A stretch of 55,513 bases of DNA from a virus, in the IMG/VR virus record IMGVR_UViG_3300030090_003604, positions 1 through 55,513 of that record. One strand, 5' to 3'. Position numbers and translations under genes: made by a program. Positions 12,210 to 24,320 of this stretch are shown in pieces. How positions within the stretch are numbered: the first letter of the stretch is position 1; each line of letters begins with the position of its first letter. The notes below the pieces were generated by a model. The model did not search any database, was not told where the DNA came from, and worked only from the letters and a program-made list of their open reading frames with translations.

Positions 12210-12566
12210 TTAACTTAGGGACAAAATATTGAAAACATCTTTAATGCTTCTGGCTACTCCTGTAATGCCCCCAGATTTATTGATGAAGTTAAGCCAATTG
12301 TTTTGTTGAGGTGTAAGTTTGCCTTTTTCTGTTTTTATTTCTATTGAGACAAACTGTGCGATTTCTTGTCCAATCATGTCTTCGGTAATTTTTATTTTCT
12401 TAAAACCGATAAGATCAGAAGAACCTTTAGCTAACCCGAACTGAACGTATCTTCCTGTTCTTGGGTCGGGAAGTTGCCCCACTTGATTACGAAAAAGGCG
12501 AAGAGTTGGTATCTTGCCGATTGCAAGTCGGATTTCCTGTTGAAGCTTAGTTTCATTGTTGCTCAC
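12210..12566 (-). CDS. VRR-NUC domain nuclease
   Basis: A 118-residue protein matching the VRR-NUC (PD-(D/E)XK) family: early helix with ETKLQQEIRLAI, GLAKGSSDLIGFKK with the catalytic Asp (about 47-60), FVSIEIKTEKGKLTPQQ with the E-x-K pair (about 72-88), and a late GGITGVARS. Stand-alone VRR-NUC proteins cut branched or nicked DNA and often sit next to phage helicases. Its start overlaps the end of the methyltransferase gene by 14 bases. Confidence 0.88.
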   Translation of the reverse strand: MSNNETKLQQEIRLAIGKIPTLRLFRNQVGQLPDPRTGRYVQFGLAKGSSDLIGFKKIKITEDMIGQEIAQFVSIEIKTEKGKLTPQQNNWLNFINKSGGITGVARSIKDVFNILSLS

Positions 12567-13557
12567 GCTCCAATTGTATAACCCTTTGCAAGGGTATAGC
12601 TGCGACAGCTGGCACTATCGTGTTTCCGAGTTGCTTGAGTCTCTGAATTCGTTGACTTGCGTCCAATTTATTGGATAACCCATCATCTCCTCTACGAATC
12701 GTGGGTTGAGATATGTATTGTCTCCAGTTTGGGTTAAGACGTCTGATATTCTGCGTTTTCCATGTCGGTCTATAAATCCTTGACCCGACCTTCCCTTGTA
12801 ATCCGTTGCTGTCGGGGTTGGAAGAATTGATACTGCATCTCTCAGTTTTACTCCCCATCTGACTCCCTCTTTGTTTTCCCTGTAAAAAGTTTCGTTCTTG
12901 TATTGAACATCCTTCACCACTCCCCCCTCCACATCCGATGCTCTCGGTGTTGGAAGCATTGGATATTTTTTCGTTGGAATTCCTATTTGTTTGCATATCC
13001 CCTCCTTTAGATTGTCTCCATAACCTAGATTCGTCCTTCCAGGTTCGCTTGCTCTCGGAGTTGGAAGAAAATCCAAGCAACCACCAGCGATCCCTTTGAT
13101 GGCAAGCTCCAACAAAGCTGCTTGGTATACAACACCATTCTGCATCGTACCCTGCCTCGAAAATGTCTCGGAGAACGATGTCCATTCCGTTAGTAAGGAT
13201 CGCTGATACGTTTTCCAAGATGAAGTATTTTGGTCGTACCATGCGTATGGTTCTGATGAGTTGAAACCAGAGACCAGATTTTGAAGTCTCCGTGATGCCT
13301 TCCCTATGTCCTGCCTGTGAGATTGATTGACATGGAAATCCCCCAGTGATAACGTCTGCTGAATATGGTTTGGCTCTGTAGGTTGTGATGTCATCGTGAA
13401 TAGGAATGTTTGGAAAATTTTTGTTTAGTACTTGTTGACAGTATGGATCAATTTCTATGAACTGTACTGTTTCAAATCCACCTACAAGGTTTTCTGCAGC
13501 GTAACTAAAACCGCCAATCCCTGCAAATGTATCTAGAAGTCTTAATTTTTTTGTCAT
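12553..13557 (-). CDS. DNA (cytosine-5) methyltransferase
   Basis: A 334-residue enzyme with the ordered m5C motifs: DTFAGIGG (9-16) for S-adenosylmethionine, GGFPCQS (72-78) with catalytic Cys76, ENV (115-117), QRDRWW (154-159), a variable target-recognition stretch (about 164-290), and RIQRLKQLGNTIVPAVA near the end. It probably modifies phage DNA against host restriction. The recognition stretch is unusually rich in Ser, Asn and Gly because the same DNA also holds another long reading frame (12615-13394). The region looks less AT-rich than its neighbours, consistent with acquisition. It overlaps both flanking genes by a few bases. Confidence 0.92.
   Translation of the reverse strand: MTKKLRLLDTFAGIGGFSYAAENLVGGFETVQFIEIDPYCQQVLNKNFPNIPIHDDITTYRAKPYSADVITGGFPCQSISQAGHREGITETSKSGLWFQLIRTIRMVRPKYFILENVSAILTNGMDIVLRDIFEAGYDAEWCCIPSSFVGACHQRDRWWLLGFSSNSESKRTWKDESRLWRQSKGGDMQTNRNSNEKISNASNTESIGCGGGSGEGCSIQERNFLQGKQRGSQMGSKTERCSINSSNPDSNGLQGKVGSRIYRPTWKTQNIRRLNPNWRQYISQPTIRRGDDGLSNKLDASQRIQRLKQLGNTIVPAVAAIPLQRVIQLEREQQ
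12615..13394 (-). CDS. Nested overlapping frame with LPTPxAxD repeats, 259 aa
   Basis: A 259-codon open frame wholly inside the methyltransferase gene, +1 relative to it. It encodes three LPTP motifs (LPTPRASE, LPTPRASD, LPTPTATD) and ends with NPRFVEEMMGYPINWT. I associate LPTPxAxD plus N-P-x-[FW]-V-E-x-x-M-G-[YF]-P-x-x-W-T with phage proteins annotated as methyltransferase-related; that is from memory. The three DNA copies of the motif vary at the third base of the Thr codon (ACT/ACA/ACC), silent here but Ser/Thr/Pro in the methyltransferase frame, which argues that this frame is selected. Its start, expression and role are unknown. Confidence 0.6.
   Translation of the reverse strand: MTSQPTEPNHIQQTLSLGDFHVNQSHRQDIGKASRRLQNLVSGFNSSEPYAWYDQNTSSWKTYQRSLLTEWTSFSETFSRQGTMQNGVVYQAALLELAIKGIAGGCLDFLPTPRASEPGRTNLGYGDNLKEGICKQIGIPTKKYPMLPTPRASDVEGGVVKDVQYKNETFYRENKEGVRWGVKLRDAVSILPTPTATDYKGRSGQGFIDRHGKRRISDVLTQTGDNTYLNPRFVEEMMGYPINWTQVNEFRDSSNSETR
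12802..13067 (-). repeat. Three 23-bp near-identical motifs in the overlapping genes
   Basis: Near-identical copies at 13045-13067, 12934-12956 and 12802-12824, each beginning CTTCCAAC on the minus strand. They encode S-N-x-[ED]-S in the methyltransferase frame and LPTPxA in the nested frame. Confidence 0.75.
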
Positions 13558-23259: not shown

Positions 23260-23682
23260 ATGCGGAAGCTTTTATTACTGTTTTTTATATATGCTTTACC
23301 AGCTAACGCAAACATTGTTCCTAATTTTACAACTGGGACTATGTCCAGCACGACTAATACACAAACTACAATTACAGAATCGATTACAAGTAAGGATTAT
23401 AAAACTGGATATGAATATACAGTTACAGGTACAGGAATTAGTGCAGATGGCGATATTTCCCCAGACGCAGTTAATGTTACAGGAACGGTAGGAGGACAGA
23501 GTTATACATGGAAAGGGGCAGATTTAACAACAAAACCAAATTGGACGTTGACAAATCCTACATCAGGAGATGCCTTTCAATTTACAGAAACATATTCAGC
23601 GCCAGGTCTTCAGAACGTCACAACCATAAATCGCACCATAGAAACGGAATCGGTCGTAACTTCTACATCTGTCTTTCAATAG
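23260..23682 (+). CDS. Exported protein with signal peptide, 140 aa
   Basis: Starts MRKLLLLFFIYALPANA|N, a clear signal peptide. The mature part is Thr-rich and beta-like, with EYTVTGTGISADGDI resembling the preceding gene. A longer frame at 23508-24320 overlaps its 3' half. Its TAG stop lies at the point where the signal-like segment of that next protein begins. Confidence 0.65.
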   Translation: MRKLLLLFFIYALPANANIVPNFTTGTMSSTTNTQTTITESITSKDYKTGYEYTVTGTGISADGDISPDAVNVTGTVGGQSYTWKGADLTTKPNWTLTNPTSGDAFQFTETYSAPGLQNVTTINRTIETESVVTSTSVFQ

Positions 23683-24320
23683 CCCTGTTACCAACAGGAG
23701 TTTTAGCTAATTCTGTTAGTCAATCAAATTCTGGAAGTGTAACTAATCAAAACTGGAATGTTAATAATTCTGGATTCCATACCAACCAGTATGGAGGCGG
23801 TGTTGTTTGCCAAGGAGCAATGATGACTATTACTCCTTTTACTACATTCAATACAAATTACAGAAAACCATATCGAGATTACTATTACACACCTGTTTAT
23901 GACGAAACTGATATTGAGGGTGACTTTGATGAAGATGGTAACCCTATAGGAGATGGTACACCTGATCGACCAGGGCAAATTTTGTATTACGCTCAAAACT
24001 ATAGCGGTACGAACAAGGATAGTTTTGCACTTGGAACAGGAATTACGTTAAATTTCAGTATTCCATTAGACAGACAATATACAAAAAGATGCAAAGAGGC
24101 TGCTCAAGTACAAAATGATATAAACAAACAAAAGCTTAAGAATTTAGAACTTGACTGGCACATGGCAAGATTACGTCATTGTGGTGAGAAAAAAATTGCT
24201 GGTATAGAATTCACAGAAGATAGTCCTTACTACGATTTATGCAGCGATATTCGAATTAGACCTATTAAGAATCAAGTCTTGCCCCATAATCATAAAATTA
24301 ACTTAAAAACACAAAACTAG
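23508..24320 (+). CDS. Exported protein, start uncertain, up to 270 aa
   Basis: The convincing part begins with a signal-like segment (RNFYICLSIALLPTGVLA|NS, about residues 50-69 of the long frame), then a mature region NQYGGGVVCQGAMMTITPF, a Tyr-rich centre with DETDIEGDFDEDGNPIGDG, and a basic helical end with several Cys. The only upstream ATG in frame (23508) lies deep inside the previous gene. No ATG, GTG or TTG lies just before the signal segment; an ATA overlaps the previous stop (ATAG at 23679-23682). So start, frameshift or sequence error must be settled. Its stop shares CTAG with the convergent gene. Confidence 0.55.
   Translation: MERGRFNNKTKLDVDKSYIRRCLSIYRNIFSARSSERHNHKSHHRNGIGRNFYICLSIALLPTGVLANSVSQSNSGSVTNQNWNVNNSGFHTNQYGGGVVCQGAMMTITPFTTFNTNYRKPYRDYYYTPVYDETDIEGDFDEDGNPIGDGTPDRPGQILYYAQNYSGTNKDSFALGTGITLNFSIPLDRQYTKRCKEAAQVQNDINKQKLKNLELDWHMARLRHCGEKKIAGIEFTEDSPYYDLCSDIRIRPIKNQVLPHNHKINLKTQN

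Follow-up and report, generated by a model that had tools for sequence, protein, structure and literature searches.

A nested reading frame as the likely specificity subunit of a split phage cytosine-5 methyltransferase

Introduction

Canonical cytosine-5 methyltransferases carry their recognition region between motifs VIII and IX, and this region makes up the small domain together with motif IX (PMC3404938). Motif IX of M.HhaI reads LHPRECARVMGYPDSY. M.EcoHK31I is divided between two chains: a large subunit with motifs I-VIII and X, and a small polypeptide that contains motif IX (PMC3404938). The small polypeptide is encoded within the gene of the large subunit, in a different frame. Multispecific methyltransferases of Bacillus phages (SPR and relatives) have tandem recognition domains that give several targets (PMC8936443), and the ShiLan domain is a hidden HNH open reading frame (ORF) located out of frame inside an actinophage methylase gene (PMC11855218).

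Here, we describe a viral locus in which one cytosine-5 methyltransferase is probably encoded as two polypeptides in overlapping frames, named alpha and beta, with beta as the specificity subunit. The expression, assembly, activity and target of this enzyme are inferred.

Organization of the locus

The window, by which we mean the whole 55,513-nucleotide stretch analyzed, is a viral contig encoding a gpA-type terminase and a VapE-like protein. The methyltransferase gene lies on the minus strand; a DEAD-type helicase is encoded upstream of it and a VRR-NUC protein downstream. Its features are as follows.

12553-13557, minus strand: alpha, a 334-residue cytosine-5 methyltransferase ORF with motifs I, IV, VI, VIII and X and without motif IX
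12615-13394, minus strand: beta, a nested ORF of 259 residues from its ATG, +1 relative to alpha; proposed specificity subunit
13392-13394, minus strand: proposed beta start codon, ATG
13087-13290, minus strand: stretch likely constrained in both frames (limits approximate), where alpha wobble change is reduced relative to control
12957-13067, minus strand: beta LPTP module 1 (LPTPRASEPG...)
12825-12956, minus strand: beta LPTP module 2 (LPTPRASDVEGG...), shared more widely than modules 1 and 3
12711-12824, minus strand: beta LPTP module 3 (LPTPTATDYKG...)
12660-12710, minus strand: beta motif-IX-like segment LNPRFVEEMMGYPINWT, placed by conservation, in-cis relatives and hhalign register
12748-13068, minus strand: alpha pass-through from motif VIII to the motif X region (residues 164-270, limits approximate)
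12622-12630, minus strand: alpha motif X core (LGN of QLGNTIVPAVA)

Alpha matches PF00145 (3.8e-42) and phrog_363 (7.6e-67). Motifs I, IV (PCQ), VI (ENV), VIII and X follow one another in order, as their positions and invariant columns show; neither a recognition region nor motif IX was found in alpha between VIII and X, and both are in beta. The intervening pass-through is weakly constrained and poor in hydrophobic residues (0.19 versus 0.46 in the core). No obvious candidate for a cognate restriction enzyme was seen among the scanned neighbors of the methyltransferase, from which we infer that self-protection of phage DNA is the likeliest role. Elsewhere in the window, two more ORFs that share a strand (23260-23682 and 23508-24320, plus strand) overlap by ~175 bases.

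Coding and constraint in the nested frame

The initial annotation had proposed that a 259-codon frame lies +1 inside the methyltransferase gene at 12615-13394, and this held exactly, on the minus strand. It had further noted three LPTP copies encoded by near-identical DNA whose differences are silent only in the nested frame. This also held when read from the sequence: the copies are CTT CCA ACT/ACA/ACC CCG, all encoding LPTP in beta, and the overlapping alpha codons TCC, ACC and CCC encode Ser, Thr and Pro.

The beta frame is coding and conserved, and the nested ORF is a real gene; this is shown by computation, in the absence of expression data. When alpha codons were redrawn synonymously, the nested span acquired a mean of 8.9 stops and remained open in 1 of 20,000 trials; permuting the alpha codons left it open in none of 20,000. 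The +2 frame has 14 stops over the same span. A pooled count of zero stops in +1 was excluded from the evidence because the open frame itself had defined the span.

Substitution patterns reveal which frame is constrained. With beta nested in +1, the third base of an alpha codon is the second base of a beta codon, and the first base of an alpha codon falls at the beta wobble position. In the alpha-only flanks, alpha position 3 accounts for approximately 62% of differences; in the overlap downstream of motif VIII its share is 25%, and that of alpha position 1 is 53%. Over 16 disjoint pairs, differences at alpha positions 1/2/3 number 331/130/128 in the module overlap, compared with 132/83/338 in the 5' flank and 52/24/117 in the 3' flank (overlap versus flanks, pooled counts, Fisher p ~1e-46). 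Position 1 exceeds position 3 in 15 of these pairs within the module overlap, and the normal pattern is retained by all 16 in the flanks. The recognition region of canonical controls shows no such inversion (558/334/971 at positions 1/2/3; 29 of 30 pairs normal).

We also classified changes by their effect, expressing rates relative to changes silent in both frames; these values are estimates, since the pairs are non-independent. After motif VIII, the rate is ~0.25 for beta-only and ~0.64 for alpha-only changes, so that, per opportunity, the latter are ~2.5 times as frequent. Before motif VIII the relation is reversed (0.63 for beta-only, 0.24 for alpha-only). Constraint is thus handed from the alpha to the beta frame just past motif VIII. 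These position-specific substitutions bear out the proposal that constraint at the LPTP copies acts on the nested frame, with one correction: alpha is not free everywhere and is under the stronger constraint of the two over motifs VI-VIII. Two outcomes had been named as grounds for refutation, namely a lack of homologues with the nested frame intact and synonymous-site conservation fully explained by the alpha frame. Neither applies: phrog_1008 and phage homologues were found, and the alpha frame does not account for the conservation.

The stretch at 13087-13290 comprises alpha motifs VI-VIII and the N-terminal part of beta (SSWKT...FSETFSRQGTMQNG). Here, alpha wobble changes are reduced (0.145 versus 0.221, p = 2e-6), with little reduction over VI-VIII in canonical controls (0.375 versus 0.405). 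About 65 codons are therefore likely to be constrained in both frames, as inferred from sequence alone, and the reduced wobble change suggests that beta begins upstream of motif VI. The locus is an unusually clear case of a long overprinted gene, with a measurable hand-over of constraint between frames, and the arrangement occurs in phages that are convenient for laboratory work.

Initiation of beta

Beta likely starts independently inside the alpha gene, although this is inferred and not shown. In the window, the beta frame upstream of alpha motif VI contains a single ATG, GTG or TTG, namely the ATG at 13394. Across relatives, a beta-frame ATG lies 12-13 codons past the alpha PCQ in 99 instances, and the codon that forms it prefers GAT over GAC (91:34 versus 223:183, p = 4e-4). 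Beta starts show no Shine-Dalgarno enrichment, and pairing is weaker than in synonymous shuffles. Constraint on the beta frame already upstream of any plausible shift point near motif VIII makes independent initiation the favored reading, ahead of frameshifting.

Distribution of the alpha/beta pair

The beta of the window matches phrog_1008 (9.9e-27), as do all 46 aligned relatives, and has a homologue in Synechococcus phage S-H1 (2e-46). Nothing credible emerged from Pfam, NCBIfam or the PDB, and a phmmer search of the PDB with the short motif IX returned no match. Relatives of beta were seen in 16 phage records (E <= 1e-5) and 48 viral contigs. Betas of the YX3973 and SG4 types have matches in 219 and 45 phage records, respectively, with nesting checked in only a few. 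Searching bacterial and archaeal genomes with a nine-residue motif-IX pattern gave 332 confirmed places. Of these, 80 were fetched, with record titles spanning Bacteroidota, Proteobacteria, Planctomycetota, Bacillota, candidate phyla and further groups. Sampled bacterial species show low prevalence: at 1e-10, there were 2 positive genomes of 296 and 6 of 289, and both counts contain the genome that served as center.

All 57 distinct loci that have both parts place beta in the +1 frame of alpha. Nearly all of the 80 loci from genomes, which were fetched by beta, do so too, and most exceptions are frame rearrangements. Because these sets had come mainly via beta, 80 viral loci were fetched by alpha alone, and a +1 beta match is present in all 79 with an assessable alpha core; in a few, it stops short of motif IX. 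The alpha query alignment was built from nested-type alphas, so this result holds for the subfamily and not for all phage methyltransferases. As a control, we took a canonical enzyme, that of Streptococcus phage Javan246, and fetched 80 of its relatives, 69 of which have canonical motif IX in frame. The module-IX part of beta is absent from the +1 frame in 69 of 69; only the first third of the beta profile is matched there, amid many +1 stops. Similarity in that third is consequently in part a by-product of alpha conservation and was not counted, and homologue counts based on it were discarded. Within the loci sampled, the two-in-one arrangement recurs in many phages and prophages.

Recognition modules and motif IX in beta

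The initial annotation had remarked on an N-P-x-F-V-E-x-x-M-G-Y-P-x-x-W-T ending, which is confirmed as the most conserved part of the family, and had left open whether the product was a modulator, a recognition domain or an alternate domain. The evidence now favors a recognition domain plus motif IX in a separate subunit. The C-terminal LNPRFVEEMMGYPINWT of beta is a motif-IX-like segment, which we align with motif IX. In an hhalign comparison of the beta profile alone with canonical motif IX, the register is right and the match weak (P = 0.057). AlphaFold2 models of beta-family proteins had low confidence (mean pLDDT 55 and 58, with 42 and 47 rows), and a fold search was therefore not used.

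Rearranged relatives show the same parts in other combinations. First, a single chain holds I-VIII, LPTP, IX and X in gp54 of Mycobacterium phage Babsiella and in Rothia phage Spartoi, the modules occupying the position of the recognition region. Second, in L006, L007, L033, L076, L097, L110 and L338, alpha stops before X, and the modules, IX and X all lie in +1. Third, the actinophage-type loci L334-L337, L339-L343, L005 and L008 have IX and X in the alpha frame, with the modules still in +1. Two products that form one enzyme would be expected to allow the IX-X segment in either of them, and these natural rearrangements support the reading of beta. When aligned by hhalign with canonical enzymes, the IX-X segments of rearranged loci match motif for motif, IX with IX and X with X (P = 3e-4). 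L115 and L348 were left out, as they have extra frame breaks that possibly reflect sequence error or decay; in L348:855-1770 (Mycobacterium phage Ochi17), a frame break joins the beta to the alpha frame, and the methyltransferase is annotated in two genes.

Each beta has 0-6 LPTP-type modules, mostly 1-4, of median length 40 residues. Module 1 of the window shares 97% identity with L018's fourth module, and module 2 recurs at ~65-76% identity in betas that are otherwise ~32-37% identical; whole-module differences separate close relatives. This pattern probably reflects the exchange of recognition cassettes, with recognition by individual modules inferred. A free-standing 77-codon ORF at L040:2798-3028 has one LPTP-type module and motif IX and overlaps alpha by 14 nt; conceivably, it is a spare cassette for exchange. 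It sits directly 3' of the nested alpha/beta gene, and a similar ORF occurs in L038, L041 and L042.

A separate observation concerns Bacteroides-type loci, in which TGA codons interrupt the alpha frame (L094:2347 and 2845, with L095 the same; L141:549 and 993; L112:2143; L010:2845). Several stand where relatives have Trp, with no interruption of the beta frame. They may reflect readthrough, an altered genetic code or a decaying alpha.

Model of the split enzyme and alternative explanations

In the proposed model, alpha would supply the AdoMet-binding and catalytic core (I-VIII), followed by a probably unstructured pass-through and motif X. Beta, from its own start in the +1 frame, would supply target recognition through tandem LPTP modules, along with motif IX. 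The two are predicted to assemble for site-specific methylation, probably to guard phage DNA against host restriction; we infer the assembly, the sequence recognition and this protective role. Against this reading stand the lack of expression, activity or structural data, the absence of a Pfam or PDB match for beta, the weakness of the hhalign match to motif IX and the missing Shine-Dalgarno enrichment at beta starts. In addition, the recognition domain of M.EcoHK31I is reported in its large subunit, so the precedent fits only in part (PMC3404938).

Three alternatives were considered. The first is programmed frameshifting, in which a +1 shift near motif VIII, and perhaps a shift back for X, would yield a single full-length enzyme. 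The DNA order of I-VIII, modules, IX and X is that of a single-chain enzyme, and in-cis versions exist. We consider it very unlikely, as the beta frame is already constrained over VI-VIII, where a shifted product would not read it; about half of the loci favor an ATG at a set position in the beta frame; and the nested form would require two opposite shifts. The second, also very unlikely, makes beta an independent protein with a regulatory or anti-restriction function, whose overlap with the methyltransferase is incidental. In its favor, phrog_1008 has no tested function, and the structure of beta is unknown. However, motif IX, missing from alpha, is in beta; IX-X moves between frames; single-chain versions exist; and beta accompanies every alpha-fetched locus of the subfamily. 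The third, a nested frame without a product that is a by-product of alpha conservation or composition, draws support from the match of the N-terminal third of the beta profile to the +1 frame of canonical enzymes, yet is all but excluded by the substitution pattern after motif VIII, the absence of the module-IX part from controls and the free-standing module-IX ORF of L040.

A bolder version of the split-enzyme model, toward which the evidence leans only slightly, sees the beta frame as an array of swappable specificity cassettes, with ~40-residue modules exchanged, added and lost as alpha reads through. If true, specificity evolves in the beta frame and catalysis in alpha, IX-X can switch frames, and the locus exemplifies a general, largely unannotated two-frame design of phage methyltransferases.

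Consequences for annotation

Only alpha is annotated as a coding sequence in S-H1, ABMM1, SG4, Spikelee, YX3973, Haboob and RcDora. Only beta is annotated in Escherichia phages NTEC3 (L344:961-1623) and Dru_SM5 (L345:961-1755), leaving unannotated an alpha frame with PCQ and motif X; parts of both frames are annotated in Samy and Camperdownii. Annotations often retain one of two long overlapping frames, and many such enzymes are recorded as a single 'methyltransferase'. Expressed alone, the annotated gene could yield an inactive enzyme or the wrong specificity.

Comparison with known systems

No description of this nested subunit in phages was found in the literature searched. By analogy, the genetic layout has precedent in M.EcoHK31I. 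What is probably new is its breadth, the exchangeable modules in an overprinted frame and the movement of IX-X between frames, although earlier notice, for example in REBASE, is not excluded.

M.EcoHK31I (YGGCCR) resembles the locus in the window by its layout: both have I-VIII and X in the large product and IX in the small one. They differ in that the recognition domain of M.EcoHK31I is predicted in its large subunit (PMC3404938), whereas the modules of the window appear in the nested subunit, as judged by position and constraint. M.AquI (CYCGRG) consists of two polypeptides split inside the recognition region, and L110, L006 and L033 are likewise arranged, with modules, IX and X in the second product. 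In contrast to M.AquI, the locus in the window keeps motif X in alpha, so IX and X are not together in the second product, and its second gene lies entirely within the first. The tandem modules of beta are similar in plan to those of SPR-type enzymes, which are single-chain; multispecificity of beta is not shown. The ShiLan domain is a homing endonuclease in an insertion, unlike beta, which is part of the usual plan of its subfamily, and no HNH domain match was found in beta or its relatives. Finally, phrog_1008 is labeled a DNA methyltransferase in PHROGs, and the family has no catalytic motifs; though the label suggests an enzyme, phrog_1008 is, on the sequence evidence, likely best read as a recognition subunit.
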